From Lunularia cruciata (Eukaryota > Streptophyta > Marchantiopsida > Lunulariales > Lunulariaceae): 64,000 bases of DNA. Shown piece by piece: positions 1 through 59,555 of the stretch (positions are counted from its first letter, which is position 1; each line of letters begins with the position of its first letter). The notes under the pieces are model-generated. The model was not told where the DNA came from. It saw only the letters and a program-made list of their open reading frames with translations, and searched no databases. A program made the translations under genes and the position numbers. The DNA lies in assembly GCA_948567375.1 (NCBI GenBank), contig OX419758.1, forward strand, positions 62,153,965 to 62,217,964, given 5' to 3'.

Positions 1-187
1 TGCAACAATAGCTGAGTCATATGATGTGCTAGTTGGGGGAGTAGTGTTATACCCCATGGGTTTTAGCATTGACTATTGGGAGGAGACAACCTCTTATAGA
101 CCTGGTTGGTAGTCTGGTGAGGGACGGGTATGTCGCCTACCAGTACACTTCAGTAGTGGCAGTCTTGGCTCACTATAGTCCGGGACC
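1..187 (+). pseudogene. C-terminal flank of the retropepsin region
   Basis: The frame starting at base 2 reads through YDVLVGG and then YPMGFSIDYWEE, a block conserved downstream of the aspartic protease in this element family and found again in the - strand copy near 37150-37230. The catalytic part of the protease would lie left of the window. A stop at about 176 ends the frame just before the methyltransferase region. This is a fragment with no function of its own. Confidence 0.55.
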
Positions 188-1541
188 ATGGCAACATCAA
201 TTTTAGCTTTCAGCGGTGCAATTACTTGGCCTGGTGACTTGTTGGAGGGGAATACCTATACAAAGGATATTCTAGTACCAGAGGAGATCACTCGGCTGTG
301 GAGTACGAGTGGGATTGTTCCATCCACCTTGGATGTTCCATTGTGGAGTTCAAAGGAGGCATTGCAACAATATGCAGATCAGTTGGTGCAGCAAGCTTGG
401 AGTGGAGCCTCGTACCATCAAGAGATGAGTGTGAGGATGAGCTTCCAGAGGCGATTGCTTTGACACCTCTAGATACCACACTCATTGCTTGGCAGTATCC
501 AATAGAAGGGATATGCCTATTGGAGTTGTTTGGTGGGATCAGCACCGGACTAGATGCGGTGTTACAGGCGGTATCCGAGTACAAAGGTACTTGTATGTAG
601 AGAGAGATGAGACTGCTAGGCAAGTCTCTCTACATCATGTGGCACACTTGGCCTATCGGTATCCGGAGTTATTACCTATGTCAGCAATCAGAGGTTACTA
701 GAAGGCCCTACCAGGAGACATTTCCTTAATGGGGGCGCATGACCTAGAGAGACATGGGCCTATTCACTTGGTGATTTCTGGATGGCCATGTCAGGGACAT
801 ACACGTATGGGCCGCGGTTTGGGTCTTCAGAATCCTCATTCTGGTGTGTTTTGGGAGATGTTATGGGTACTACGACATCTCCAGGTTCATCAGTCTGTTT
901 CTCAAGCTTACCTTTTGGAGAACATTCTTTTGATGGGTGATTCTCGCACTAGAGTGGTGGCAAGTACACATCAGGTCCATTCTTGGATGGGACCTACTGC
1001 ATTGTTAGATGCAGCCAGAGTGAGATCATGGGCTCATCGTCTTCGTCTTTGGTGGACAAACCTCTTACCCAAAGAGGTTCTACAGCGCGCGTATGATGGG
1101 ATTCAGCGACTTGACCACATCTTTGTTGATGATATCTTGGATGTTGGGCATCAGTCTCAGATAGTGGTAGTGGCTGATAGGTCACCTATGGCAGTGGTGA
1201 ACCTAGTTGGACAGCCTAGAGCTGCATTTCCCACACTCATGAGTTTCCCAAGCTCTCATGCTTTTTGAGAGGGAGGACCTGGACTTGTTTGGGACTCATA
1301 GTTACAGCAGTTGGTGGAGCCCAATGCTAATGAGAGAGAGCGGGCAATGGGTTTTTGCACCGGTATTATTGCTGTTCCAGTAGTGTCAAAGGCATCCAAG
1401 CGTCAGGTGTTAGGTCAGGCTATGGACCTGAACCGTTTGACCTGGATTGTGAGCCTTGGCTTGGCAAAGCAGCGTAGGATGCGCTTGATAGGCATCACCA
1501 CTTTGACACTTGTGAGCTCTGTGCCTATTGAGACAATTTAG
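188..1541 (+). pseudogene. retrotransposon-encoded C5-cytosine DNA methyltransferase (broken)
   Basis: The enzyme family transfers a methyl group from S-adenosylmethionine to carbon 5 of cytosine in DNA. Motif I (LLELFGGISTGL) is at 517-552, motif II (YLYVERDE) follows at about 580-605, motif IV with the catalytic Cys (GWPCQGHTR) is at 780-806, motif VI (LLENI) at 915-929, motif VIII (HRLRLWWTNL) at about 1038-1067, motif IX (NERERAMGF) at about 1326-1355 and motif X (RQVLGQAMDL) at 1401-1430. Order and spacing match the family, including a target-recognition stretch between VIII and IX. Frames change near 440, near 600 and in 690-730, and a stop falls at about 1266. The domain lies between protease and RT of the element. 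The closest subgroup (DNMT3-like or other) cannot be told by eye. Confidence 0.88.
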
Positions 1542-1879
1542 GCACATGTTGGGGGCAATAGACCGAGTGGGCATAGTATTCTTGGGACACATCCAGTAGC
1601 TACTAGGGAGAGTGGTCTACTTGGAGTCCATCCATGTGAGCGTGGGCTACTTGGATTACATCGTTGGTCCATATGGGATGCAGCTAGAGGACGTGTGGAG
1701 CTTGTAGCCAGAGTGGAGGGAGTTTTTCACATAGAGGTTGGGACCTCTAGTGGTCGGGAGCATGACACTATTGCTCCCAAGGGCTCAGTTTAGCAGCCAA
1801 TCAATACGTCTTCCACTCCTACTACAGTTACAGAGGATACTTGGGAGCTAGATCTTGGACCCAAGCTTATTGGAGAGGA
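1542..1879 (+). pseudogene. linker between methyltransferase and reverse transcriptase
   Basis: A loosely open stretch with a repeated LLGVHP / LLGLHR motif (about 1620-1665), followed by a basic and Ser/Thr-rich part leading into the RT. The same linker is read on the - strand at about 35400-35660 in the other copy (GLLGVHP, GLLGLHP), so it is a genuine part of the polyprotein. No known domain was recognised. A TAG stop near 1791 sits where Gln is expected. Confidence 0.5.
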
Positions 1880-3288
1880 AAGACAAAGGGTTTGGATGTT
1901 CTTGAGGAGTCACACGAGTTGTTTTGCCTTCAATATGAAGGATTTGGGTGCTCTGAAGGGACTTGTTTATACGGATTGAGCTGACTAGCAAAACATTAGT
2001 TTTCCAACGTCCTTATTGATATAGTGAGATGGAGAGGACATTGATTCAAAGCCGGAATAGTGACTTTTTTGAGGCTGGTTTGGTGGAGATTTCACATGGA
2101 GAGTATGCATTAGCGACGGTGATGCCAACCAAGAAGGATATGCATGGCAACTATACAGATAGGCGGATGTGTGGAGATTACCGTCCTATCAACCGACAAA
2201 CAAGGGCTGATTGGTATGCCATGCCTACAACGGAGGAGATTTTTGATGCAATTGGGCATGCAAAGGTCTTCAATACTTTGGATCTTCAAGCGGGATATCA
2301 TCATTTGCCAATCAAGGAGGAGGATAAGTCCAAGACAACATTTTGGGCTATTGATCCTCACGGCAAGGATGTGTTATATTAGTGGAGGTTCTTACCATTT
2401 GGGTTAAAGAACACTTCTGCTAAGTTCCAGAGGGTCATGGATAGGATCCTAGCTGGATTGGATTTTTCTCGGTGCTATATTGATGACATTTTGGTTTATA
2501 GCACTACTCTGGAGGAGCATGAGAGACAATTGTTGGAGGTGTTTGAGAGGTTGAGATCTCATGGACTCAAATTACATCCTGGGAAGTGTAGGTTCTTCCA
2601 CGAGCAGGTTGAGTATTTGGGTCACACTATCTACCCCGAAGGACTTGGTGTCCAGCAGACCAAGGTGGAGGTTATTGCACATATTCCTTGGCCTACGGAT
2701 GTGAGTAGAGTGCGAGCATTCCTTGGGTTGGCAAACTTCTATCACCACTATGTTAGAGGATTTAGTGCCATTGCCAAGGCCTTGACAAAGCTGACCAAGC
2801 TTACACAAGAGTGGTGTTGGGAAGATGAGCAGGAGAGAGCTTTTGTAGAGCTCAAGGAGAGGTTGACATCTGCTCCTATTTTGAGGAGACCGATCAGGGG
2901 ACAACCATTTTAGGTTCACACTGATTGGAGTATGTTGGGGCTTGTAGCGGTGCTCACCCAACATGATGATGAGGAGAAGGAGTTTGTGGTGGCCTATGCT
3001 AGTCGCTCCAACAATTCAGCAGAGGTGAAGTATAGTTCATATGAGGGAGAGTGCTTGGCAACAGTTTGGGCAGTAGCACATTTCCGATGTTACCTATTTG
3101 GTAACCCCTTCACTCTCATCACTGATCATCAGCCGTTGAAGTGGTTGATGGAGTCCGACAAGCTTTCAAGGAAGCTTGCACAATGGGCTTTGATTTTAAA
3201 GGAGTATGATTTCACGGTTGTTCACAAACTTGGAGTGGTGAACCGTGATGCAGATGGGCTGAGTAGAAACCCATGTCCCAGCCAGTAG
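1880..3288 (+). pseudogene. Ty3/gypsy reverse transcriptase and RNase H
   Basis: The RT copies the element RNA into DNA and RNase H removes the RNA strand. The palm begins with RMCGDYRPIN (about 2163-2192) and TLDLQAGYHHLPI (about 2275-2313). The catalytic box CYIDDILVYS is intact at about 2473-2502. LHPGKCRFF and YLGHTI follow, then FLGLANFYHHYV. RNase H is recognised from TDWS, SSYEGECLA and TDHQPLKWL (up to about 3150) and ends with DADGLSRNP near 3274. Stops at 2380-2382 and 2911-2913 are TAG codons at places where the family has Gln. The sequence type resembles metavirid RTs of algae and early plants more than the chromoviruses elsewhere in this window. Confidence 0.92.
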
Positions 3289-3339
3289 GATCAGACCGGA
3301 GCACGTTAGCATGGTGAGGCAGATGAGGAGATGGTGCTA

Positions 3340-4560
3340 GGTTGGCATGCATCGGCCTTTCTGTGTATATTTGCAGAGGCTTTGGTGGTATCTTTCTCAA
3401 CGCATATATGAGGAGTTATTGAGGTCACAGATCCAGAGAGTGAAGATATTGGTACAGTTCAGCAAGACATTCATGATGATGTCTTAGTGATGGACTATCT
3501 TTGCATTGGTGTTGTGGGTGGCACAGTTGGGGCCAAGGAGAGAGACCATGTTCTTCAACGAGCCAGACGGTTCAGATTGGAGGGTAGACACCTTTTGCAT
3601 GTATGGGAGGATGGTAGAGTGCGAGTTATACCACTTCCATCACAGAGACCACAGTTGGTCCGTCATCTCATGAGGAGCTAGGACATTTTGGAGTAAAGCT
3701 TACGTATAGCTTACTCCAGAGTCATTATTGGTGGTGTGGTATGCAGACCGAGGTACAACAGTTTGTTGCCATATGTCTGGTTTGTGACAGAGTTAGAGCA
3801 TCATTCAATGCTCCTACGCCACAGTTATACCCATTACCTATCATGGGATTGGGTAACCGTTGGAGTTTGGACTTTGCCAAACCTTTACCGCTGACTGTGA
3901 GACATCATCGGTATGTTTTGGTGATGGTAGAGCACTTCTCCAAGTGGATTGAGTTGGTGGCACTTCTTGACAAGTCTAGTGAAGGGACAGCTTAATCATT
4001 CCTGGATTGAGTTCTTAGTCATTTTGGTGCACCAATTGAGGTTTTGACTGATCAGGGTACAGAGTTCTTGGGGGAGTTTCAGGTTTTGTGTGACAAGGCT
4101 TTGATTGATCATTGTACTACATCCCGAGATCACCTTGAGGCAGATGGCTTAGCAGAGAGAGTAGTTTAGACGGTGAAGAGAGGATTGCAAAAGTATGGTT
4201 TGCAGAGAGGCCACTTAGGAGATTGGGATCTCCAATTACCTTGGTTGGCCATGGGCTATTAGTTCAGCCGGCAAGCCTCCTTAGCATCCTTCTCTCCATA
4301 CTTTCTACTTTATGGATGAGATCTTGATTTACCTACAGCCATTCGTCAAGATGCTACTGTAGTTTTGGACTTGGATGACCCCGATGTATGGATGAGCACA
4401 TGTTCTCAGCGGGCAGAGATCTTTCAGAGAGTGATGCCAATGGCTTTTGAGAACTTGGCAATTGCTCAACATAGAGATACTTTACGCTATGCTACCATTT
4501 GAGGAGGAGGTTATAGACCCTCGATCCGTTGATTTCATCCAGGTAACTATGTATATCTAT
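3340..4560 (+). pseudogene. Ty3/gypsy integrase
   Basis: The integrase inserts the DNA copy into the host chromosome. The zinc-binding HHCC part is seen as HEELGH (about 3670-3690) followed by CLVC near 3775. The catalytic DDE residues lie in SLDFA (about 3867), LTDQGTEF (about 4040-4070) and ADGLAER (about 4140-4160), so all three acidic residues survive. Downstream is a C-terminal part ending in FHPGNYVYL near 4525-4555. Several stops (at about 3993, 4008, 4168, 4259 and 4317) sit at positions expected to be Gln or Arg. Not active. Confidence 0.88.
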
Positions 4561-4899
4561 AGCAGATAGCACCAACAACACTTGATGTTTCTACATGCCG
4601 TACTATCTTGAGTGCGTGAGGTTTTGCCATCTGGAGTCCTTGTGTTAGAAGGACGTGATGGTGTTGTTTAGAAAGATCATGTGTGCAATTGTGCGCCATG
4701 CCACCTTCCAAACATTGATGGTACTATGGACCCAAGCTTGGCACTTATACGTGCAGGCTTGAGGTGTATGTTATGTGGCTCTTTTGGTGGAGCTACTACT
4801 ATGTTAGTGTGTGATTGTTGTTCGAGAGGATGGCATATGGCATGTATGACTCCTCCCCTCATGGTGGTTCCTTAGGGATAGTGATTATGTCCTAGATGT
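4561..4899 (+). pseudogene. C-terminal PHD finger domain of the element
   Basis: PHD fingers bind two zinc ions and commonly read the histone H3 tail. The zinc ligands follow the C4HC3 pattern: CMLC at 4765-4776, then CDCC, then a His four residues later with WHMAC, and finally CPRC at 4888-4899. The aromatic residue before the last Cys pair appears as a stop (TGA in place of TGG), and two TAG codons just upstream fit ancestral Gln. The block before it (TTLDVSTCRTIL and VLVLEGRDGVV) joins it to the integrase. The same fold in decayed form is found at the matching place of the copy ending at 22880. A role in choosing chromatin targets is inference. Confidence 0.8.
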
Positions 4900-5076
4900 A
4901 CTTGACCTATAGCTAGTTCATTCTTTATATGGTATAGATTGTAGACAGACGACTAACGATGAGGCTCCATAGCACCTGGCCTCCTGATCTTTGCCCATTA
5001 GAGGGTATACCATATACTTAGAGTAGATGGCTATCTGGAGTTAGAGGGACCTAACCACCAGCTAGGGGAGCGATTT

Positions 5077-5178
5077 TGGCACTTTAGAGTCTATGTATGA
5101 CTTATGTGTGAGTTGTGCTTCTATAGTATATGATGTTGACAGCGATGTATTTGTGTAGCGATGTATATATGCACGATA
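5077..5178 (+). repeat. ~103-bp direct repeat, copy 1
   Basis: Begins TGGCACTTTAGAGTCTATG and runs to the ATATATGCAC segment. An almost identical copy starts at 5638, 561 bp downstream. This could be an internal duplication of the element's 3' end. Confidence 0.85.
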
Positions 5179-5590
5179 GCTATCATGCCATTTGTAGTGC
5201 CGCATCTGGATGCTCGGACACTAGAGTTCCAGTGATAGTAGTTAGAGTTATTTCAGCCGTTTCTCAAAGACTACTTTCTGAGGGTTAGATTTTGTGTTCG
5301 GAGTATTGACTTCACCGTGGGGCCCACCGTCACTTTGCACCGTTTGCACCATCGAGTGTGCCATCAACGGGACCATTAGGGTTTCAGAGCTAGCTCGAGT
5401 CCAGGGAGTATAGTTTTGAAGTGAGCTCCAAAGAGCTCACTTCTTTGATGTTGAGCCTTTGAGTTCTTGGCTATGGTGGACAGAGGCCGGCGAGCGTCAC
5501 CTAGATTCTCTATGCTTGAGTGGGTGTGGCTTGACTGTAATCAGTGCCCAATTGTTGGCAGTTTATAGAGTGACAGATCAAGTACTGATC

Positions 5591-5615
5591 TGAGTTGAGT
5601 TGAGTTGAGTTGAGA
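5591..5615 (+). repeat. GAGTT pentanucleotide microsatellite
   Basis: About five tandem TGAGT units in the 3' flank of the methyltransferase element. Confidence 0.8.
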
Positions 5616-5637
5616 GTGGTAAGCAATCTGATTATTG

Positions 5638-5741
5638 TGGCACTTTAGAGTCTATGTATGACTTATGTGTGAGTTGTGCTTCTATAGTGTATGATGTTGA
5701 TAGCGATGTCTGTTTTGTAGTGATGTATATATGCACAATAT
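5638..5741 (+). repeat. ~103-bp direct repeat, copy 2
   Basis: Second copy of the 5077-5178 repeat, with a few substitutions near its right end. The 92-bp minisatellite begins directly after it. Confidence 0.85.
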
Positions 5742-12180: not shown

Positions 12181-13740
12181 TAGATTGGAGGAAGAAAGTG
12201 GTGAGAACCAACCAATGGTTAATCATTGGGGTTAAAGAAAAATCACACAAGCAAGATTTGCCTCTATATGTCAGAGTTACAGCAACTGTTTGTAAGATCG
12301 ATAAATGTTTCATGGGTCTGATAAGAGAAGTCCAGAGTGCACAACTTGATGAACAAATTCTTGAGAAATTGAAAGATGTGGTGGATGAGTTTCAAGATGT
12401 CTTTCTCGATGATCTACCCTCAAGATTACCACCAAAAAGGAGAGAAGATCATAAAATTGAGACACTCTTGGGGAAGACACCTCTTTGTAAGGCCCCATAC
12501 CGTTTATCACCTCATGAGTTGGAGGAATGTAAGACTCAAATTGAGGAGATGTTGCAGAAAGGGTTCATCCAACCTAACATATCACCATATGGTGCTCTTG
12601 TCTTGTTTGTGAAGAAGAAGGACGGTACAATGTGCATGTGCATTGACTATCAAGATCTCAATCAACAAGCAATGAAGAACAAATACCCCTTACCTTGTAT
12701 GGATGACCTATTTGATCAACTCCAAGGAGCAAGATACTTTGCCAAATTGGACTTGCAAAGTGGTTACAATCAAATCTGAATTGTGAAAAAAACTGCCTTT
12801 TGAACCAGGTATGGCCACTTTGAGTATCTTGTGATGCCTTTTAGCCTCACCAATGCACCTGCCACTATCATGAGTCTAATGAATGACATATTCCATACTT
12901 GGATAAGTTTTTTATCATCTTCTTGGATAGCATCCTAGTATATAGTAGCACAATGACAAAACACAAACAACATCTACAAGAAGTCCTCCAGATTCTAAGA
13001 CAAAATTGATTGTATGCCAAAATCTCAGAGTGCAAGTTTGGCAAGTCTAAAGTAGACTAATTGGGGCATAGAGTAAGTGCAGAGGGCATTCAAATATTGA
13101 CGCATAAAATTGAGGTCATTCAAAAGTAGAGTGCCCCAAAAGATCAGACTCAACTCAAGAGCTTCTTGGGGTTGATGGGATTCTATCATAGATTTGTCAA
13201 GGACTTCTCCAAGGTTCCACAGCCTTTAACGGCACTACTTGGCAAGGGGAAGAAGTGGACATGGAGAACCGCACAAGAGTTAGCCTTTTAAGAATTGAAA
13301 GCCACCTTGCTACATGCACCAATCTTGAAGTGGTATGATCCAAAACGTCCAATCAAGTTGGCTATAAATGCATCAAGCGTAGCAATAAGAGCAGTCCTAC
13401 AACAAGAGTGGCATGACGGATGGCATCCAATTACATATTTCTCTCAAAATTTGTTATTGGCAGAGTGATACTACCACACCACAGAACAAGAAGAGTTGGC
13501 TATCATTCTTGCAACCAAGCATTGGAAGCACTATCTGGGCAAGAAGGCATTTGTAGTAGAGACAGACCATAAACCTCTAGTCTACCTTGAGACATAGAAG
13601 CATCTGTCTTGTCGCCATATATGATGGGCAGAGTGGCAATAATGCTTCAACATGATAGTTACCTATGTGGAAAGTAAGAAGCAACTTGTAGATGCATGCA
13701 CCTGCATGCCAATGGCAAACAACTTGGTGGTAGAGGTTAA
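12181..13740 (+). pseudogene. chromovirus reverse transcriptase and RNase H
   Basis: RT boxes seen: [22 protein letters not shown] and [13 protein letters not shown] (to 12776). A TGA at about 12777 stands where Arg is expected. [11 protein letters not shown] follows, and the catalytic box reads FLDSIL (about 12920), with Ser in place of the second Asp. RNase H shows WHPITYFSQNLL, HYLGKKAFVVETDHKPL and the end of the domain near 13720. Many stops. The defect at the catalytic aspartate alone would inactivate it. Confidence 0.88.
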
Positions 13741-14960
13741 GATTAACCCTAATTCTGGCCTGAAATTCTGGTTGCTACAAAAATTGATCTATAGATTGTA
13801 GAAGAACAATCATCCAAAGGTATCACCAGCACCTAAGGACTCACCTTTCATGATGAAAGATTATAGATCCCAAATGTCCTAGAATTATGCACTATCATTC
13901 TAGCAGAATGTCATGATTTGGCCATTGTAGGTCATGTCGGAGTGGACAAGACCTTGGATAGAGTCCAGTGCCATTACAATTGGCCCAAGATGAGCAACAA
14001 TGTGATGGACTACGTGCGTAGTGATCTACTTTGTCAAAAGAACAAAGCTTCTAATCAAGCTCATGCAGGGCTCCTTCAACCTCTCTTCACTCCTACCCAA
14101 CGTTGGGAAAAGGTGAGTATGGATCTCGTCTGTGAATTACCCAAGACCACCTCAGGGTTTGACTCCATTGTGGTCTTTGTGGACTAGCTCAGCAAAATGG
14201 TTTATGTATGCCATACCACCAAGGATGTAACCGCTCCACAACTAGCTAAATTATACTTAGATGTAGTCTTCTCTCACCTTGGCTTGTCTCAAGTACTCAT
14301 CACCGATAGAGGTACTCAATTCACTTGTTTGTTTTGGCAAACACTCTTTGGTTTCTTCAAAACCAAGTTGGCCATGTCCATAGCTTACCACCCACAAGTA
14401 GATAGACAAACAAAGCGGGCTAATTGCACTATTGAAGACATACTATGTGGCTTCACCTTAGAAGAGCAAGAGAGGTTGGACACGCTACTCTCGTTGGTGG
14501 AATTTGCTTACAAAAATTTAGTGAATGCATCCACCTAAGTCACTCTATTCTTCCTCATGTATGGTGAACATCCCTTCACACCTTCTAGCTTAATGAAGAT
14601 TTGTTTGGTGGCTACCAAGGTCAACGCAATCAACACATTTGTTTCTAGAATCCAACAAGGTGTGGAAAGCGCCAAGCACAGATTACAGATTATGCAAAAT
14701 TGACATAATCAGTATGTTGATGCACACAGTAGGCACATGGACTTCAATGTTGGGAATCAGGTGTGGCTATCAATAGCCAACCTCACATTAGTTGGACCTT
14801 GTTTTATTGGGCCTTTCTTGATTCTTTGTCGAGTTGGCGCTATGGCCTATCACCTCGAGCTACCACCACACATGAAGATCCATCTAGTGTTCCATGTTTC
14901 CATATTATGTAGATATGCTCCCCAATCAAGCCAGGGTCATTCCACACAAGACATTTGACC
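13741..14960 (+). pseudogene. chromovirus integrase
   Basis: The zinc-binding region (GHVGVDKTLDRVQCHYNWP) is at about 13930-13990. Core residues are SMDLVCELP (14118), LITDRGTQF (about 14299) and HPQVDRQTKRAN (about 14390), where the expected catalytic Glu is Lys. The C-terminal part contains FNVGNQVWLS and LELPPHMKIHLVFHVS, a usual run-up to a chromodomain. One stop interrupts the core at 14185. Confidence 0.88.
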
Positions 14961-20469: not shown

Positions 20470-20765
20470 GTTCTAGAACCACCTATGAAATTTCATGGTA
20501 GGAATCTTCTAGGGACCTTCCAAGGATTGGGTAACTTGCACACCAAGTTAATAGCTAACTTAGCTTGTATGCCAAGTAGACAACTTCTAAAAGAATTCCT
20601 TGGAAGCTTCTCAAGAGCCTTGCATTGCTTCACTATAAATACCAAAGTCCAAATTCATGTTAGGCATTTGGAGTTTCTTTCAGTTGAGAGTTTTGATATG
20701 ATCTTCCCTTCTGATCTTCCATTTGCAAATTTCTCTCCTTGGTCTTTTAAAAAGCTTTGTCAAAG
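20470..20765 (+). repeat. partial chromovirus LTR
   Basis: The stretch with AAGCTTCTCAAGAGCCTTG, a TATA box at 20633-20640, CATTTGGAGTTTC and TTCTCTCCTTGGTCTTTTA matches the LTRs at 40138-40621 and 62823-63248 (the latter inverted). The left part is degraded, and no matching partner or target duplication was found. Confidence 0.7.
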
Positions 20766-20787
20766 GTCACCAAGTTTCACAAACATA

Positions 20788-22370
20788 ATGTTGGGGAGAT
20801 GAGCAAGAGAGAGCTTTTGTAGAGCTCACGGAGAAGTTGACATCCTCTTCCATCCTTAGGAGACCAATCAAAGGATCCATATTCTAGGTTCATATTGTAT
20901 GTTGGAGCTTAAAGTAGTGCTTACTCAACAAGATGATGAGGGGAGAAGTTTGTGGTAACTTATGCTAGTTGCTCCAACAATTTAAAAAAAGCAAAGTACA
21001 ATTCATATGAGAAGGAGTGTTTAGTAGTAATGTGAGCAATTGCACATTTTTTATGTTACTTGTTTAAGAATCACTTCATTCTCATCATTGACATCAACCA
21101 CTAAAGTTGTTGATGTGGCCAACAAGCTTTGGGAAATCTTGCACAATGGGCTCTGATTTTATATGAGATGATTTCATGATTTTTCATAGACCTAGAGTGG
21201 TAAAACATGATGAAAATGGGTTGAATAGAGCTAGCATGATTATATAAAGGCACATTGGCATGGTGAGATAGATGAGAGATGGTACTAGGTTGGCATGAAT
21301 TTTCTTTTTTATCTATTTTGATTGAAGCTTTGATGGTATCTCTATCAACACAAATAGGAGGAGTTGTTGAGATCTCCAAGTCGGAGAGTAGATATTTTGG
21401 TATAAGTCAACAAGATATTCATGATGATATCTTGGTGATGGACAGTCTTTGCATTTGTATTGTGGGAGGCACAACTAATACCAAGAAGAGAGACCATGAT
21501 TTCAACAAGCCATGTACTTCATATTGGAGAGCAAACATATTCTTAAGACATGGGAGGATGGTATAGTGAAAGTAGTTCTTCTTCCATCTTAGAAACCACA
21601 ATTATATGTCATACTCATGAGGATCTAGGACATTTTGGAGTGAAGCAAATATTTAGCTTACTCTTAAGTCATTATTGGTGGTACAATATGCATATTGATA
21701 TGCAATAGCTTGTTTCAATATGAATGGTTTGTGACTGAGTTAGAACATCACTTAATGCTCCCATGCCATAGTTGCACCCTTACCTATTATGAGGTTGGGT
21801 TATCATTGGAGTTTGGAATTTTTTGGACCTTTACCATTGACTATGAGATATCATCATTATGTTTTGGTTATGGTGTAGCATGTCTTTAAGTGTGTTGAGT
21901 TAGTGGTACTTCACAAAAAGTCCAATGGATTGTCAACTTATTTGTTCTTGGATCAAGTTCTTATATGCACCCATTGAGGTCATAAAAAATTATGGTATAG
22001 AGTTCTTAGGAGAGTTTCAGGTCTTGTATGACAAAATCTTGATTGATTACCATACTACATCTTGAGATCACCCTAAGGCAGATGGTTTGGCAAAGAGAGT
22101 TGTTCAAACAATGAAGAGAAGATGCATAAGTATGGTTTGCAAAGCAATCATTCTAATTATGTTGGTTTGCAATGGGTTATTGGTTCAATTGGCAAGCATC
22201 CTTAGCATCATTCTTATTTTCTTACTTTATGGACAAGATCCATATTTAGCTACAATCATTCGTTGTGATGGTAGTGTAGTTTTGGACTTGGATGATCTTG
22301 AGGTATGGGTGAGAGCATATTCTCAACATGTAGAGTTTTTGGAGAGTGATACCAACTGATTTTACAACTA
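20788..22370 (+). pseudogene. RNase H end and integrase of copy 2
   Basis: Recognisable pieces are the YASRSNN-like block near 20960, the spacer IHDDILVMDSLCIC-like stretch (about 21418-21460) shared with copy 1 at 3469-3510, the zinc-binding segment near 21660-21740, and a C-terminal block with VVLDLDDLEVWVRAYSQ at about 22276-22326. Every domain contains stops. No function can remain. Confidence 0.75.
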
Positions 22371-22599
22371 CTCAATATAAAGATACTTTAGATTATCTCA
22401 CTATTGAGGGTGATATTATAGATCCACAATCCATCAAAGTATAATAAACTTCATAAACTAGATATCTATATTTCAATATAGATTTATATCTATAATAGAT
22501 TGCACAACAAATCTTGATGTGACTACATGCCGTACTATCTTGAGAGAGCATGAGATTTTGTCTTTTGGAGTCTTCATGTTAGTATTATGCAATGGTGTT

Positions 22600-22840
22600 T
22601 TTTTTGGAAGGATCATGTGTGTAATTGACCATCATGCCACCTCCTAAATATTGATAGTACAATGGACCCAAGCTTGGTAGTTGTATGGGCAGGCTTGTCA
22701 TGTATGTTATGTGGCTCTACCTATAGAGCTACTACAATGTTAGTGTGTAATAGTTGTTCAAGAGTATGGCATATAGTATGTTTGACTCTTCCCCTCACAA
22801 TAGTTCCTTGAGGGCAATGGCTATGTCCTTAATGTAGTTG
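22600..22840 (+). pseudogene. PHD finger remnant of copy 2
   Basis: Aligned with the PHD finger of copy 1: a CMLCGS piece near 22706-22723 and the VCNSCS-like and WHI-like continuation near 22744-22775 keep the first, second and third ligand positions. A TAA now splits CxxC number two, and the final Cys pair is damaged. It confirms that the PHD finger belongs to the element. Confidence 0.65.
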
Positions 22841-22885
22841 ACACTTTAGCTAGTTCATTCCTTAGGTGATATAGATTTTGTTGTG

Positions 22886-25751: not shown

Positions 25752-27997
25752 ATGATGAAGGTTGTGGTATGGTTAGTGGCAGCTGCTGTGGTATCGCAGG
25801 GGCTATCAGCTGCTGAGTTCAGCACTAAGCTGAGAGCCGATTATTATGATCAGACTTGCCCGCAGCTTTACTCGACTGTGGCGAGAACATCATGGTATAA
25901 GTACAACAATTCGGCGGTGGTTGCAGCTGGAGTGCTGCGTATCTACTTCCATGACTGCTGGGTCGCGGTAAGATTAATCAACCCGTTAGCATCGCTTTCT
26001 TGAAAGCTCGAAATGGTTTTCACGTCGTGAATTTTGGTCGTTCAAATTACGTTTGTCATGGCTGATTTGAGTCGTTGCGATTGACTACAGGGCTGCGATG
26101 CATCAGTGATGCTTATGGCCACGGAGGAGAATCAGATGCCAGAGAAGGATGCACAGGAGAACTTGTCCCTATCTGGAGATGGTTTCGATGCCATCACTCA
26201 AGCTAAACTTGCAGTTGAGGAAGTTTGCCCTGGTGTGGTATCCTGTGCCGACCTCATATCTGTCGTTACCCGCGAGCTCATTATTTTGGTACGTACCACC
26301 GAGGACTTTCTTTCAGCTTGAGTAGAACTAATTTCGTTAGTCTTCTGGACCTTGAGTGTTAACACGTCCTAACCTCCCGTTCCAACAGCTGATTTTAGCT
26401 CAATCGAGATGACCGTTAGTCTTTGTCGATACAAATTGGACTGATTGTTAGAAAGCTTGGGAAGCTATGACACGTTTGGACTTCTATGCGAGCGATGTGC
26501 AAGCGAAGATGCTAGAGGTGCATAGACGGACATTTCACCCCTGTACAGTGCAATTTTTTAATACATGGACTGAAACTGCAGCTAGATTCAACTTATCGTC
26601 AAGAAAAATTGATGCCGTGTGGCCTAAGTTGTTCCTGTTCAAAGGCTTGACCTCCGGAATTGAATCCTGTAACTCCTAATGCTAAAGAGTCCTTGTTTAT
26701 GAAATAGCACAGGTTGAGGAAGAAATTCGGCCACCTCACTCTGAACTGGGCTTCGGGTAGTCCGGTTGTCTCATAACATATGCCGAGTCTGATAGATCCA
26801 TATGGCACCCATTCAGTTCTGCAACAGTGCTCAGGCCAGTACCGATTCAACAGCATTCTGGTCCTGCTGAATTGGGGCAAGTCCTTGTTTGAATGGTAAA
26901 TTAGCATTGACTGGTGCTTCGGAAAGAGTTTGCCGTCCAGTCTGACCAAGTTTCCCTAATTGTTTCCACAGATCCCATTGTGAGAGAATTGGGTTAAAGG
27001 AACGGTGAGATATTTTATAAGAGCTCGTATCAATCAGAAGTGCTTTTATATTCCACATATCGACCCGGGAACAGTTTATCCCTAACGTTGCGTTGACAAC
27101 CTTAACTGATCGGGCCAGTAGACGTTCGGATTGTGTTGTTGTTTGTATGTTCGAAGTTGATGTGATCTGCTTCGTGGCCTGTTCAGGCGGGAGGACCAAG
27201 ATATAAACCTTTACTCGGCAGGCTTGATGGGAGAACGTCGACTGCAGATGCGGCTATAGCTGCTCTCCCGCGTGCGAGAGATCCTATGACTAAACTCATT
27301 GCGAATTTCGCTTCGCAGAATTTCAGCTCTCGAGAAATGCTTGCTCTCCTTGGTATGTCCATGTCCATGCCGGTATACCTTGCTCTCTCATATTCCGCTT
27401 GAACGTCGTACACAAATCTTTGGTATAGTGTAATCTTCATTTGTGGACCTAATCAGGGAACATCAAGGAGCAAACAAATCTCTGCTGGAGCTGAAACTCG
27501 GGTAACAAGTTCCTTAATATTCAGGTAGAGACTGACTTTGGGTTGGGCAACTTCTTGCTAATGCAGGAGCACATACCATAGGTTTTGCACATTGCATAGA
27601 ATATGACTATCGAGTCTACAACTACTCGAGTTCAAGCAAGATCGACCCCAAAATGAACGACACTGCCATCGAATCAGCCCTCGGAGTATGCCCAGTGGGA
27701 GTAGATCCCCTTATTGTTGGGAATTTGGACAACACTACCCCCGAAGACTTCGACAACTCGTATTATGGTAATTTACAGAGAGGGGAAGGGGTGTTGGAGT
27801 CGGATCAGCTGCTATATGAGGATTCTCGTACCAGAGCTGGAGTCAACAGTTATGCCTCCAACCAGACAATGTGGTACAGGGACTTCGTTGCAGCCATGAT
27901 AAAGCTCGGGAATCTTAATGCGAAGACCACTTTAGGTCCGGATGCAGAAATTAGAAAAGACTGTGCATTCATAAATCCTGGTCCTCCTGCTGTGTAA
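25752..27997 (+). CDS. class III (secretory) peroxidase, 4 exons
   Basis: Class III peroxidases are secreted haem enzymes that use hydrogen peroxide to oxidise phenolics, for example in lignin and cell-wall cross-linking. Exons are 25752-25967, 26091-26288, 27187-27352 and 27567-27997. All introns are GT-AG, phases agree, and the product is 336 aa, normal for the family. The first ~21 residues form a signal peptide. The distal site is RIYFHDC and the proximal haem His lies in GAHTIGFAHC. VVSCADLI and eight cysteines are in place. Three introns match the ancestral peroxidase gene structure as I know it. FHDCW has Trp where Phe is nearly universal (FHDCF), and RELIIL replaces the usual RD box; neither removes a catalytic residue. 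Intron 2 is 898 bp. No frameshift or stop, so probably functional. Confidence 0.93.
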
Positions 27998-31905: not shown

Positions 31906-33519
31906 TTTGATTTCAATTTTCCATGCTTTCCTCCTTACGAACATCACAAATCAATTTTTGTGGTTGTTGTGTGCACCAAATTTGAGTTTTGGTATAGTTG
32001 AAACTATGGAATATCCTTCGTCTCCTCTAATTCCCATAACAGTTCTTTCTCCTCTCATGCTCCCTCTTTGCTATCTCTCCTTCCTATCTTGCTTTTGTTT
32101 CCACTCCATCACAAAGAGGTTAGATTCTAAGAGTTCTTGATAATGTACTTCGTGTCTTTGCTGTGAAGCAAAGTAAAATCGAGGAAGATAGATTTAGGAT
32201 GATCCTTTTATCACTTTATCACATTATGTCCAAATTTTAGACTACTTTGATGAATTCAAGCATTTCAATCAAATTCACGGGCTTGCAAAAGCTAGTTCTA
32301 AAGAGCACCGCATTTACTGATATGATCACTTATCTCACGAGGAATAATAAGAGAGGATTCCTATCGTTGATGGCAAGATAGAAATTGTACAAATTTATGC
32401 AAGATAAATAAAGTCTTACAAATCTGCCAGAGGCGGATGGACATATGCATAAGGGAAAGTCCCACGAAGAAAAGTTGAAACATGGATGGAGGGAGAACCG
32501 TTTGTGTATATTATCTATGTCTCGTTTAGAGAGAATAGATATTATGCTTGGATGCAACGCTAACATTTCCCCATGTTTGTAAGCATGGGAACAAGGTGAA
32601 TTTTTGCGATTTGATAGGCCAAGGTGGATAAACATATCCAGATCCAGATAAAAGATTCTAAACGATGAAGATCTTTTGTTAGTAATTACCGAATTATTTT
32701 CTTTCATAATACCTAATATGAAAAGGTTAGAAAAAAAGAGTCCATTGTGTTCTAAATTTCCATATGAGAATGTTCTAAGTGAGAAAGTCACGAGAAACAA
32801 AGAGTATTTTCTATCATAAGAATGAGACAAAGAAGGAGAGGAAGATGGATAATCACATAAATGTTGTAAATGGTACTCCAAGATGACACCTTTAGTTGCA
32901 GCTATGAGCTATAACACACAGTTTATGAGTTAAATATGTGAGTTAATACCCAATTTTATTATGATTATGTTTTTATTCGTGTGGTTTGGTGTTCCTTTTT
33001 GTCTCCAATAATTTGATTCAAGTATTTTGATTGACAAAATGAATCTACAAGGGCGGAAAAGTATGCTTTGTCTACATTGAAGTGCACCAAGACTACAATA
33101 CTATGTGCTTGCAAAAATAGATTGTATATTAGGATGTGCTAAGATTGTGTTGGTGTATGCTCAAAAAATTAATGTGTTCATTGGGATGTGCTAGGACTAT
33201 GCTGATATGTGCTCATGAAAATGGTGTGTTTGCTAGGATGCACTACAAACAATTTTTCTCATGTGAGTCTGCCTCTTTATATCAATATTCTATGTTGCAT
33301 GAGTCTATGTCTCTATATTGATAGTTTGTCTCCCATGATTGTGTATCTTTATTCCTATCTAGATTCCAACATCTTATGTAGTGTAAGAACTCACCTTAGA
33401 CTCATATAGAGTTGTGGAAGACTCCACTAAAAAAGACCTAGTAATTCTCTAACATTAAACTCCTTAGTACTTCTCAACTCCTCACACAACCTCTCTCTTC
33501 TCTTGTACATTGTGTGGCC

Positions 33520-33960
33520 CTAAAGAGCGTGCCACCAATAATGACTATGGAGTAAGCTTTATGTATGCTTTACTCCAAAATGTCCTAGCTCTCATGAGAA
33601 TGACGGACCAACTATGGTCTTTGAGATGGAAGTGGTACTACTTGCATTCTACCATCCCCCATACACAAAGATTGGAGTGCAGACACACAAAGAAGATGTC
33701 TGCCCTCCAATCTGAACCATTTAGTTTGTTGAAGAACATGGCCTCTCTCTTTGGTCCCAAATGTGCCACCCACAACACCAATGCAAAGATAGTCCATCAT
33801 TAAGACATCATCATGAATGTCTTGCTGAACTATACCACTATCGCCACTCGCTGGATTTGTGATCTCAATAATTCCTCTTGTATGCATTGAGAGAGATACA
33901 ACCAAAGCCTCAAAAAATATACAAAGAAAGGTAGATGTATGCCAACTTGGCACCATCTCC
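33520..33960 (-). pseudogene. RNase H-integrase spacer and start of integrase, copy 3
   Basis: Contains the spacer IHDDVLMMDYLCIGVVGG (about 33765-33820), shared with copy 1 at 3469-3520 and copy 2 at 21418-21470, then the first His-containing part of the integrase before the break. The reading frame around 33612-34073 is open for 153 codons. Confidence 0.7.
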
Positions 33961-35250
33961 TCATATGTCTCACCATGCCAACATGCTCTAGTCTGATCTT
34001 GTTGGATGTGACATGGGTTTCTACTCAACCCATCTAGATCACGGTTTACCACTCTAGGTCTATGAATAACCATGAAATTATACTCTTGAGCCCATTGTGC
34101 AAGCTTCCCTAAAAGCTTGCCAAACTACATCAACCACTTTAGTGGCTAATGATCATTGATGAGAGAAAAGGGGTTACCAAATAGGTAACATTGGAAATGT
34201 GCTACTGCCCATATTGCTACCAAGCACTCTCCCTCATATGAACTATACTTTACCTTTGTTGAATTGTTGGAGCGACTAGCATAGGCCACCACAAACTCTT
34301 TTCCTAATTGTCATGTTGGATGAGCATTGCTTCAAGCCCCAACATATGTGTGAACCTGAAATGATTGTCCTTTGGTATATCTCCTCAAAATAAGAGTAGA
34401 TGTCAACCTCTCCTTGAGCTCTACAAAAGCTCTCTCTTGCTTATCTCTCCAACACCACTCATATGTAAGCTTGGTCAGCTTTATCAAGGCCTTAGTAATG
34501 GCACTAAATCCTCTAACATAGTGGTGATAGAAGTTAGCCAACCCAAGAAATGCTTACACTCTGCTCACATGCGTAGGCCAAGGAATATGCATAATAGCCT
34601 CCACCTTGGTCTACTAAACACCAAGTCCTCTAGGGTAGATAGTGTGACCCAAATAATCAACTTGCTCATGGAAGAATCTACACTTCCTAGATGTCATTTG
34701 AGTCCATGAGATCTGAACCTCTCAAACACCTCCAAAAAATGTCTCTCATGCTCTTCCATAATAGTGCTATAGACCAAAATGTCATCAATATAGCACTAAG
34801 AAAAATCCAATCCAACTAGGATCTTGTCCATGGTCCTCTGGAACTTGGCAAGAGTGTTCTTTTACCCAAATGGTAAGGAGTTCCACTAGTACAACACATC
34901 CTTGACATGAGGATCAGTAGCCCAAATGGTTATCTTGGACTTATCCTCCTCTTTGATTGGCAATTGATGATATCTTGCTCAAAGATCCAAACTACCAAAG
35001 ACCTTTTGCATGCCCAATTACATCAAAGATCTCCTTCGGTGTAAGCATACCATACCAATCAGCCCTAGTCTATCAATTGATAGGATAGTAATCTCCACAC
35101 ATCCATCTATCTATGTAGTTGTCATGCATATCTTTTGTGGTTGGCATCACTATAGTTGATGCATATTCTCCATGTGAAATCTCTACCAACAAGCCTCAGA
35201 AAGGTCTCTACTCTAGCTCTAAATCAATGCTCTCTCCATTTCATTATATC
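33960..35250 (-). pseudogene. reverse transcriptase and RNase H remnant of copy 3
   Basis: On the - strand the fragment ANFYHHYVRGFSAITKALIK (about 34470-34540) and the following WCWRDKQERAFVELKERL block match copy 1. The RNase H end (VVNRDLDGLSRNP) is at about 34010-34050. The palm region with the position of the YIDD box is near 34770-34800 and includes a stop. Not functional. Confidence 0.8.
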
Positions 35251-35789
35251 AATAGGGATGTAAAAAAATTGGTGTATTGTTAGTCAGCTTAGTCCAAATA
35301 CCAAGTCCTTTTAGAGCACCCAAATCCTTCATATTGAAGGCAAAACAACTAGTGTAGCTCCTCAAGAACCTCCAAACTCTCTGTCTTTCTCCTCTTGTAA
35401 GCGTGGGTCCCAAGTATCCTCTATAAGTGATGTAGGAGTGGAAGATGTATTGAGTGGCTGCTACACTTGGCCCTTGGGAGCAATAGTGTCATGCTCCCAA
35501 CCACTAGAGGTCCTAACCTCCGTGTGAAAAACTCCCTCCATTTTGGCTGCAAGCTCCACATGTCCTCTAGCTGCATCCCAAGTAGACCAAGGGTGTAATC
35601 CAAGTAGACCATGCTCACTTGGATGGACTCCAAGTAGACCTCTCTCTCTAGTAGCCATTAGATTTGTCCCAAGAATACCCTATCCACTTGTCCCATCACC
35701 CTAGCATACGCTTGAATTGTCTAGATATGCATAGAGCTCACTAGTGTCTAAGTGGTGATGCCTATCAAGCACATCCTATGGTACTCTGC

Positions 35790-36760
35790 CAAACCAAGGC
35801 TCACAATCTAGGTCAAACAATTCAGGTCCATAGCTTGACCTAACACCTAATTCTTGGATGCCTTTGACACTACTAGAACAACGGTAAGACCAGTGCAAAA
35901 ACCTATTTCCTGCTCTCTCTCTCTCTCTCATCTACATTTAGCTCCACCAACTGCTATAACTATGAGTCCCAAACAAGTCCAAACTCCCTCTCAAAAAACA
36001 TGGGAACCTAAGAAACTCATAAGTGTGGGAAAAGCAACTTGAGGCTATCTAACTAGGTTCACCACTACCATAGGTGACCTATTAGCCACTACCACCATCT
36101 GAGATTGACACCCAACATCCAAGATGTCATCAACCGTGAGGTGGTCTAGTTGTTGAATCCCATCAAAAGCACACTATAGAACCTCTTTGGGTAAGAGGTT
36201 CATCCACCAAAGACAAAGATGATGAGCTCATGATCCCACTCTAGTTGCATCCAACAACACGGCAAGTCCGACCCAAGGATAGACCTTATGTGTACTCGCT
36301 ACCACCCAATTGCAAGAATCACCCATTAAAGAGATATTCTCCAAATGTAAGTTGGATAAATGGATTGATGAACCTCAAGATGTACCTCAAGATGTTGTAG
36401 TATTTATAATATCTCCCAAAACATAACATCACATATGTATCCCTAACATGGCTATCTAAAAATCACCAAATGAATAGGACCATATCTCTCTAGATCATGC
36501 AACCCCAACAAGGAAATGTCTATAAGTAGGGTCTTTTGGTAACCCTTGAGTTTTGACATCAATAATAGCTCAAGATACCGATAGGCAAAGTGTGTCACAT
36601 GATGTAGAGAGACTCACCTAGCAGTCTCATCTCTCTCCACATAAAAGTACCACTATACTTGTTTACTTGTATACTTGTCTGTAGTACCGCAACTAGTTCA
36701 GTGCTAATCCCACCAAATCCATTAAACATACTCCCTCTATTAGATATTGCCAAGCAATGA
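35790..36760 (-). pseudogene. C5-cytosine methyltransferase remnant of copy 3
   Basis: Compared with copy 1, motif I survives as GFGGISTEL (about 36710-36735). The motif IV site is at 36441-36456 and keeps Pro-Cys, but the flanking Trp and Gln codons are both TAG. Motif VI keeps LENI (about 36330-36350), and motif IX keeps a GFCTG end near 35890-35900. Many further stops. It is an independent copy of the same domain in the same place of the element and therefore supports the architecture of copy 1. Confidence 0.8.
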
Positions 36761-36949
36761 GTGTGGTATCCAAAGGTGTCAAGGTAATCAACTCTAGAGG
36801 CTCATCCTCATATTCATCTCTTGGTGGTACAAAGGCTCCACTCCAAGCCTATTGCACCAATTGATTGGCATGTTGGTGTAATGTCTCCTCTCAACTCCAC
36901 AATAGAACATCCAAGGTAGATGGAACAATCCCACTCATACTCTAAATCT

Positions 36950-37483
36950 AAGTGATCTCCTTTGGTATCAAAGTATCCTTTGCATGGGCATTCCTCTCCA
37001 ATAAGTCAATAGGCCAAGTAACAAAACCACTAAAAGTTGAAATTGATGCCGCCATGGTCTAGGACTATAGTGAACCAAGATTGCCACTATTGAAGCATAT
37101 TGGTAGGCAACATACCCATCCCTCACCTGACCGCCAACCTGGTCTATAGGAGACTATCTCTTCCCAATAGTCAATATTGAAACCCATGGGGTATAACATT
37201 GCTCCTCCAACTAACAAATCATATAACTCAACTACGGTTGTAATGGCCTGGCCACCATGGAGTTATCAATCAAATGACTATGCTGAATCTGAAAAACAAG
37301 CTCTCCACATGTGATGTACTCTATAGAACCACCCCCTAAAGATATCTGGATCTAAAATGGACACCTTTCCACATCGATCTTTAGGAACTCCAAACTGACA
37401 ACTATAGCCTTCCCAAAAGTCTAGCACACCTAAGTCTAGTAAGACCCTTTGTGGTGTATAGACCTTTCTTGAATGTCCCATGT
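36950..37483 (-). pseudogene. retropepsin region of copy 3
   Basis: The - strand frame from about 37505 down contains [16 protein letters not shown], which fits the active-site D-(S/L)-G box of this family with LDLG, followed by a later ATTVVELYDLLVGG-like block and YPMGFNIDYWEE (about 37150-37230). The end of this region is shared with copy 1 at 1-187. Stops interrupt it near 37275. Confidence 0.6.
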
Positions 37484-58200: not shown

Positions 58201-59555
58201 GAGGAAGAGGTTGGACTCGAGAGGAAAAGAAAGAGCAGTTAGGAACAAAGGGTTTCAACTTGGAAACATGAAAGACACAATGGATACGCATATGACAAGG
58301 CAAGGCAAGTCAATAAGCAATAGGAGAGACAATTTGAGTGACATCAAAAGGTCCTATCTAATTAGGGGTAAGTTTACAAAATTGGGTATCAAGGGGGAGA
58401 GGGAGGTTATTAGAGGATAACATGACTTTATCACCGACTTCAAAGGTGAGATTACAACGATGGTGGTCCGCATATTGCTTTTGATAATTCTGATCAACAA
58501 GGAGGTAAGATTTGGCTTGTTGGAGAGATTGGGATATAGTGGTCAAGAATGTTGAAGTATGAGGAACCTGAGATGGAAAGGGAGTAGAAGAGAATTTGGA
58601 ACAAGCGGATCTTAGCCAGAATTGAGAAAGAAATGAGAAAATCCAGTGCTTGCCTGTTTGGAATTATTGTAGGTAAATTCTGCAATTGCAAGACATTCAT
58701 CTTAATTGGTATGGTGGACATTGACAAAGGTACACAACATATCTTCCAATATATGATTTGCACGTTTGATTTGTCTATCAATTTGAGGATGATAAGCCAT
58801 GGTCAAAGCAAGCTTGGTATTGAGTACCCGAAAGAGTGCTTGCCAAACCTTCCTGGTAAATCAAGGATTGTGGTCGGAGATGAGTACACATGCCATCCCA
58901 TGATGCTTGAAGACATTGTCAAAGTAGATTTGCACTAAGGTTATAACATCCACGGTATCACAAGTTGGTGCCAAGTGGATTTGCTTATTAAGCTTATCCA
59001 CAAACACCACAATTGTTGTGTGTCCTTACTTTGTCTTGGGCAAAGATGTGATAAGATGCAAGCTCATATGCTCTCATCGAGTGGATGGAATGGCAAGTGG
59101 TTGAAGGAGTCCACTTGGCTTCTAGTTGCTAGCCTTGTTGCATAGGCAGCTCATACATGATCAGATAAATTCTCTAACATCTCGTGTCATGTTGGGCCAC
59201 CACCATCAGCATTGGAGGGTACCCAAGGTCTTGTCCACACCGATCTAACCAACTATGGGTAAATCATGGGCTTCTTGAAGGTGCACAAGTCGAAGATCAC
59301 CTTTGGCTAGAACATAGATCCGATACTCATGGAATAGAAGGCCCTCCTTGATAGAGAAGGTGTTGTACTTCTTGTCGCATGTTGTAAGGCGACCATGTAC
59401 CATTTGGAAGAAGGGATCTTGTTGTTGAGCCAACTGAAACTTGTTTTGAACCTTGGAGTCAATTGATACCGTCATAATTGCCGCTTTGATAAGAGGAAGA
59501 GACTTAAAATCAAGTCATCGTGATAAAGCATCAGGGATGATGTGGAACCTGATTT
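58201..59555 (-). pseudogene. chromovirus integrase
   Basis: The - strand zinc-binding region reads LVHLQEAHDLPIVG (about 59245-59290). The core lies in broken frames from about 59230 to 58640. The end of the domain contains TFEVGDKVMLSSNNLPLPL (about 58390-58460). Stops are numerous. Confidence 0.75.

Follow-up and report, generated by a model that had tools for sequence, protein, structure and literature searches.

Retrotransposons that carry a captured C5-cytosine DNA methyltransferase (DNMT) have been known since 2018 (de Mendoza et al., 2018, PMC5890265), and the dinoflagellate and charophyte cases mentioned in the first-pass annotation of the present locus are indeed on record there as the elements of Symbiodinium (SymbioDIRS-Dnmt3 and SymbioLINE-Dnmt) and of Klebsormidium nitens (KnitGypsy-Dnmt3). 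The Symbiodinium elements are DIRS or LINE retrotransposons that acquired their enzymes independently, and two of the DIRS-element Dnmt3 enzymes perform de novo CG methylation in yeast (PMC5890265), whereas the element that we describe here, from the liverwort Lunularia cruciata, has a DDE integrase and a gypsy reverse transcriptase (RT). KnitGypsy-Dnmt3 shares with the Lunularia element the Gypsy domain set, a Dnmt3-like DNMT within the polyprotein, methylated copies and, according to the legend of Fig. 4, a DIRS-like arrangement of its repeats (PMC5890265). It differs in that the Lunularia element resides in a land plant and is present in thousands of copies. In addition, that paper does not mention a PHD finger (0 occurrences) or a leaky stop between DNMT and RT, and its sole passage on a 'stop codon' concerns Symbiodinium (PMC5890265). 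The PHD finger, though undescribed there, is probably shared by the Klebsormidium element, because the K. nitens protein P0184, which falls in the same RT clade, carries one. Two further K. nitens proteins, P0082 (CCHC and DNMT) and P0115 (RT, 55% identical to that of the Lunularia element), are probably two frames of one element, because they have consecutive locus tags and the same contig size of 7,497.

With respect to land plants, a 2019 paper describes such transposons as absent from them, such as from tracheophytes; a 2025 survey refers to the 2018 paper for their occurrence in streptophytes and dinoflagellates (PMC12344493); and a Marchantia methylome paper names five host DNMTs (PMC5784723). 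We noticed no earlier report of such an element from a land plant in the literature that we searched, a scope outside which many subscription journals and preprints lie. The suggestion in the first-pass annotation that the find may be new therefore stands for membership in land plants and falls for the kind of element, which dates from 2018. What is new is the land-plant range, the copy number, the leaky stop, the PHD finger and the presence of two domain orders in the clade. Such elements are present in Marchantia, Sphagnum and, with thousands of copies, Lunularia. As Marchantia is grown in laboratories, experiments in a land plant that has its own silencing machinery can now address directly how a retrotransposon benefits from carrying a methyltransferase.

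The window, by which we mean the whole 64,000-nucleotide stretch of DNA analyzed, opens inside a Ty3/gypsy-type element (copy 1) that extends 5' beyond the window start, and it holds a second copy on the opposite strand (copy 2) as well as a third, more distant relative (Table 1). Copies 1 and 2 were mapped domain by domain with tblastn, using open-frame copies from the same genome as queries. The order is protease, DNMT, RT, RNase H, integrase and PHD finger in copy 1, and protease, DNMT, RT, RNase H and integrase pieces in copy 2. This confirms the original observation of a C5-methyltransferase lodged between the protease and RT of a Ty3/gypsy element, and its motifs were also correctly read as running in order, from I to X, without rearrangement. 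The span first assigned to the enzyme (188..1541) is right for the larger part: the DNMT domain begins at 511, while 188-510 belongs to the stretch between protease and DNMT, and the protease motif (DSGA), placed from the frame of a relative, lies about 200 bases upstream of the window start.

Table 1. Features of the DNMT-carrying element and its relatives within the window.
Feature	Position	Strand	Support
Copy 1: C-terminal part of protease and protease-DNMT stretch	1..507	+	tblastn protease 2-409, 406-507, 85-88%
Copy 1: Dnmt3-like C5-methyltransferase domain	511..1538	+	tblastn 88-90%, E 0.0; motifs I, IV PCQ, VI LLENI, VIII, IX/X
Copy 1: TAG closing ORF1, with CAGCCA after it (type I leaky-stop context)	1791..1799	+	window letters
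Copy 1: reverse transcriptase	1972..2694	+	tblastn 89%; Pfam RVT_1 on 2383-2910
Copy 1: RNase H	2695..3294	+	tblastn 92.5%
Copy 1: DDE integrase, frameshift near 3666	3565..4373	+	tblastn 91%
Copy 1: PHD finger, C-terminus of integrase polyprotein	4732..4902	+	tblastn 84%; Pfam PHD 7.4e-10 in open-frame relative
Copy 1: repeat B1, purine-rich stretch just before	5067..5176	+	blastn 94%
Copy 1: repeat A2 (second occurrence of element 5' end)	5178..5634	+	blastn 92%
Copy 1: repeat B2, element 3' end	5634..5736	+	blastn 93%
Copy 2: protease-DNMT-RT-RNase H-integrase pieces	33418..37478	-	tblastn domains; blastn 81.9% over 33528-37478
Copy 2: protease	37417-36735	-	tblastn
Copy 2: DNMT domain, older and more decayed	36729-35712	-	tblastn three pieces, 52-63%, E 3e-98
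Copy 2: reverse transcriptase	35290-34575	-	tblastn
Copy 2: RNase H	34574-33993	-	tblastn
Third, more distant relative: RNase H, integrase and PHD finger	20741..22877	+	tblastn RNase H 33%, integrase 42-62%, PHD 67%

The DNMT match in copy 1 consists of two pieces, 511-570 (frame 1) and 567-1538 (frame 3), that together cover residues 1-343 of the 344-residue query. The domain, whose frame shifts near 567-570, is broken by four stops and one gap, so this copy is unable to make the enzyme. When the Pfam DNA_methylase search proposed as a check was run, the longest open piece of the window (702-1265) reached 15.6 bits (E 0.011) and thus missed the cut-off of 22, whereas the genomic copy L010 passed with 31.3 bits (E 1.9e-7). 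The match in copy 2 spans residues 3-344 of the same 344-residue query. For the third relative, which is 73.5% identical over 20751-22877 (blastn) and cut off on its 5' side, tblastn of the window found no DNMT.

The genome that we searched comprises 565,766,749 bases in 74 contigs; published sizes for Lunularia cruciata are 580 Mb (PMC9985172) and 565.6 Mbp (PMC12885004), and Ty3/gypsy bursts are reported as the source of most of its larger genome (PMC9985172). A Pfam search yielded 123 scored matches out of 2,161 candidates, mostly at profile positions of about 48-120; across the whole set, the frames were 97 to 1,428 residues long. A 33-base pattern spanning the point where the DNMT frame ends, in which any codon was accepted at the stop position and at most three mismatches were allowed, occurred 3,043 times (1,510 + 1,533), compared to 0 for the reversed control; with TAG fixed and 0 mismatches the count was 691, again with 0 in the control. 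If all 3,043 copies were full length, at about 9.9 kb each, the family would occupy about 30 Mb, which is an upper estimate since many will be fragments. In blastn comparisons, identity reaches 94% over 5.7 kb between copy 1 and L014, and about 82% over 4 kb for copy 2, indicating that the family includes both younger and older members. As to intact copies, which the first-pass annotation had recommended looking for in the same genome, each of the two long frames is fully open in some of 20 fetched copies, picked for their long open frames.

The first open reading frame of the element encodes a putative gag (with two CCHC knuckles, the first kind canonical and the other nearly so), a putative protease (with the motif LLDSGA) and the DNMT, and ends in TAG; past this TAG the same frame continues with RT, RNase H, an integrase with an H2C2 finger and, at the protein end, the PHD finger. 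The Pfam order (RVT_1, RT_RNaseH, Integrase_H2C2, rve) is that of a Ty3/gypsy RT-RNase H-integrase module, and the best solved relative on the RT side is Ty3 Gag-Pol (E 9.9e-97). The gag and protease assignments are based on motifs: the Pfam family Retrotrans_gag stayed below its cut-off in L010 (13.8 vs 24.1 bits) and no protease family is listed for this copy, while aspartic protease models matched the Closterium relative P0044. The closest solved relatives of the PHD finger include the fingers of CHD4, KDM5 and ATXR5, several of which are of a type that reads the unmodified H3 tail. A histone-reader-type domain at the integrase C-terminus is also found in chromoviruses, which are gypsy elements with an integrase chromodomain; the Lunularia element differs from these in having a PHD finger instead of the chromodomain, and a DNMT in addition.

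The TAG at the junction of DNMT and RT is present in all 20 fetched copies and in copy 1 of the window. In 100 listed junctions (out of 3,043), read with the codon left free, we found 97 TAG, 2 TAA and 1 TTG; these come first along contig C1 among the places whose flanks match exactly, a choice that favors young copies. Because sense codons are so rare at this position, the copies that amplified had the stop, and their RT was probably made by reading across it. The six bases after the TAG (n=21) are CAGCCA in 17 copies, CAGCTA in three and CAGTCA in one, all of which fit CARYYA, and UAG followed by CARYYA is the type I readthrough context of plant viruses, among them tobamoviruses (PMC5382211). 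Predicted RNA structure 3' of the UAG did not exceed chance (z 0.02 and -0.10). We know of no description of the CARYYA type as requiring downstream structure. The UAG could have started as damage that the active lineage tolerated, since deamination of a CHG cytosine converts CAG into TAG.

Both ends of the element could be read in 10 copies with flanks: it starts with TGTCACGCC and terminates with CGCACGACA, with one B2 end reading CGCATGACA. All 10 copies examined have the repeat layout A1 - coding - B1 - A2 - B2, in which A1, the first about 450 bases (in L009 the first 77 only), recurs as A2 near the 3' end and lies there between B1 and B2, the two occurrences of a 106-base repeat. Where it is undecayed, the B1-A2 junction is the palindrome GACAGCTGTC (copies among L009-L048 and the 5067-5736 region of the window). 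Measured against one reference A, the A repeats of the 10 copies reach 96.9-100% identity, with a single exception, an A2 at 88% (L013). By eye, target duplications of 4 bp flank 8 of the 10 copies (none in L013 and L020), and together with the TGTC...GACA ends they are characteristic of integrase-type insertion. Plain LTRs at both ends are absent, as the 5' end has A only and the 3' end B1-A2-B2. This layout corresponds to what we take to be the split direct repeats of the DIRS/PAT kind. DIRS/PAT elements use a tyrosine recombinase, in contrast to the Lunularia element, which has a DDE integrase, TG..CA ends and 4-bp duplications. Insertion by the DDE integrase apparently involves a molecule with TG..CA ends, yet the repeats are split in a DIRS/PAT-like manner, and we infer that the B1-A2 junction would supply both missing cDNA ends, replacing plain LTR logic.

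Relatives of the element were collected in three protein searches. Among the matches listed, DNMT carriers are Marchantia polymorpha, Sphagnum fallax, Closterium, Klebsormidium nitens and many metagenome sequences; Tetraselmis is a probable carrier on a weak case, as its motif IV cysteine did not align. DNMT identity to the Lunularia element is 71% in Marchantia, 49% in Sphagnum and 35% in Closterium. A land-plant host is thus supported by Lunularia itself and by relatives in Marchantia and the moss Sphagnum, while a vascular case, also considered at first, finds no backing: there is no named vascular plant among the DNMT-carrying matches listed, with many listed matches bearing no species name. 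Calypogeia and Riccia contributed RT-side relatives only, and the closest named RT relatives listed are all from liverworts, namely Calypogeia fissa (80%), Marchantia (71-77%) and Riccia sorocarpa (86%, at a query coverage of 40%). One second-frame protein, P0096 (RT to PHD, 1083 aa, 71%), is named as a transcriptome contig, so a relative of the element seems to be transcribed in some species. The order protease-DNMT-RT is found in bryophytes, Closterium and Klebsormidium. Other sequences among the matches show a second order, RNase H - DNMT - integrase, followed by PHD in one frame, which was checked with Pfam in P0024, P0036 and P0042. A scan of viral contigs for relatives with P0012 returned 12 pattern matches and no relative.

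For the DNMT domain, a quick tree of 82 rows was reduced to a careful tree of 46 rows by dropping long branches, near-duplicates and M.HhaI. In the 46-row tree, all element rows are separated from host DNMT3, host DRM and human DNMT3A by a split with 100/99 support, which answers, for DNMT3 and DRM, the tree comparison advised by the first-pass annotation in favor of the element; in the 82-row quick tree the host/reference trio lay inside the RNaseH-DNMT-integrase group, on a long branch. Elements with the RNaseH-DNMT-integrase order form one clade both in the 46-row DNMT tree (96/84) and in an RT tree of 66 hand-chosen rows (97/92), whose named outgroup is not one clade (Cordylochernes stands apart on a long branch). 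Support of 99/100 unites 11 plain gypsy RTs of the RT tree in a separate clade. Both trees group the Lunularia element with Marchantia, Closterium and Klebsormidium rows, apart from the plain gypsy RTs, and place it in a Gypsy RT clade carrying a Dnmt3-like domain. The 23-row clade of the RT tree that holds the Lunularia element includes 7 rows in which no DNMT was seen and 8 PHD rows with no DNMT in frame. These 15 rows could be second-frame proteins or fragments, since only their downstream parts are seen. As far as the sequences go, this distribution fits one capture and one relocation within the polyprotein, the alternative being two captures.

Building on the observed domain order, catalytic residues, UAG context, copy number, ends, relatives and trees, we propose an ancient capture of a Dnmt3-like enzyme that is supplied at the level of Gag and marks the element's own cDNA, with integration guided by the PHD finger; we give this explanation as a whole a probability of roughly 0.55. 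An ancestor of the liverwort Ty3/gypsy-type family would have captured the Dnmt3-like cytosine methyltransferase long ago. The main translation product would be Gag-protease-DNMT, and occasional readthrough of the conserved UAG-CARYYA would extend it to Gag-PR-DNMT-RT-RNaseH-integrase-PHD. Because the DNMT lies 5' of the leaky UAG, the enzyme would be packaged at Gag-like rather than Pol-like amounts. Its most likely targets would be CG sites in newly made cDNA of the element, methylated by the time of insertion, and the new copy would enter chromatin already marked, while the PHD finger of the integrase would read the histone H3 tail and help to choose the site. A more far-reaching version is possible and we offer it tentatively: the capture may have preceded the split between Klebsormidium and land plants in one green-plant gypsy lineage, which would have kept the enzyme since, moved it once between two polyprotein slots and joined it with a PHD reader of the H3 tail. 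This would amount to a split DNMT3 reader-writer pair that pre-marks its own cDNA, at Gag level via the leaky UAG, in a family that took part in the Ty3/gypsy bursts doubling the liverwort genome. If true, a silencing enzyme on board accompanied success and not extinction.

By sequence, the best solved relatives of the element DNMT are DNMT3A and DNMT3B. When a structure model of the relative P0002 (mean pLDDT 59.8, with the methyltransferase part mostly at 70-90) was compared to the PDB, all 50 fold matches listed were DNMT3 (E 1e-15 to 1e-13, TM by target up to 0.80). Motifs I, IV (PCx), VI (ENV), VIII, IX and X follow each other in the unrearranged Dnmt3-type order. A DRM identity was rejected on the same grounds, as the element does not have VI-X before I-IV, an order that the host DRM (L002) does show. 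This nearest family and fold speak against the alternative that survives best, in which the domain is now mainly a Gag-side module that binds nucleic acid or acts on RNA, packaging or protecting genomic RNA, with DNA methylation not its role. So does the conservation of residues that pure binding would not need: in an alignment of 78 element domains, 71 retain the catalytic Cys, 76 the motif VI Glu and 72 the motif VIII Arg. The position of the domain on the Gag side of the stop, which means a high dose if readthrough is rare, would suit such a role, as would the change of the motif IV proline to Glu (ECQ-like, not PCQ-like) in 31 of the 78 domains, which might alter base handling. That proline is, to our knowledge, nearly invariant elsewhere. 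Closterium rows and rows of the RNaseH-DNMT-integrase clade are among the ECQ-like ones (within P0023-P0204), and in most cases Cys and Glu are otherwise conserved. The closest relative assayed in print that we are aware of is the Klebsormidium Gypsy DNMT. It produced no methylation in yeast, a result that would also agree with a binding or RNA role and that its authors call inconclusive (PMC5890265). Taken together, we consider this role doubtful.

Compared to four agreeing reference copies, copy 1 has 223 differences at 4,788 sites, 175 of which are C>T/G>A. By context, the C>T changes amount to 54/263 in CG, 75/443 in CHG and 46/1667 in CHH for copy 1, and to 90/198, 131/370 and 126/1,322, respectively, for copy 2; in copy 1, CG and CHG are thus hit at far higher rates than CHH. 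Six further, much younger copies show the same lean (CG 0.015-0.049, CHG 0.016-0.061, CHH 0-0.003). The element copies have probably carried CG and CHG methylation in the germ line. This clear scar would be consistent with the self-marking proposed above. It would also be consistent with an enzyme acting in trans on the host or on sister copies, either as self-limitation or by disturbing host silencing, so that the benefit would be tolerance by the host and not the marking of cDNA. That the family nevertheless reached thousands of copies could be read in the same way. However, methylation by host enzymes of the MET1/CMT type accounts equally well for the scar without any enzyme from the element, and the scar is silent on whose enzyme was at work; we regard an action in trans as unlikely.

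In a within-family selection test on the 20 fetched copies, in which shared variants were compared with single ones in seven regions, only gag plus protease fell below 0.05 (p 0.037), and the DNMT alone was not significant (p 0.19). The ratio of nonsynonymous plus stop to synonymous variants, summed by hand over the regions and omitting variants found in exactly two copies, was 405:201 among variants private to one copy, compared to 61:62 among those in at least three copies. In 1 of the 20 copies the motif IV Gln codon was lost to a stop. This loss and the result for the DNMT alone would be compatible with a passenger, captured once and carried along with little effect. Such a passenger is improbable, however, given that the catalytic residues are kept in most rows despite the low identities reached in Marchantia, Sphagnum and Closterium, and that purifying selection with Ka/Ks < 0.2 was reported for the Klebsormidium element (PMC5890265). 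Finally, the outcome named at the outset as fatal to the claim, a host gene fragment lying by accident beside the RT in the two window copies, has no supporting point that we could find and is refuted by the 3,043 junctions genome-wide, by the same domain in the same slot in several species and by the 100/99 branch from host DNMT3 and DRM.

Separate host genes for DNMT3 (L001) and DRM (L002) are present in the genome, and a second DNMT3-like locus (L004) contains a stop in the match. Within the window, further decayed gypsy elements at 12465-14610 and 59547-60784, in which tblastn found no DNMT, have RT pieces that are 24-34% identical to those of the DNMT element. An exon of a peroxidase gene lies at 27536-27997 (Pfam peroxidase, E 2.5e-21).
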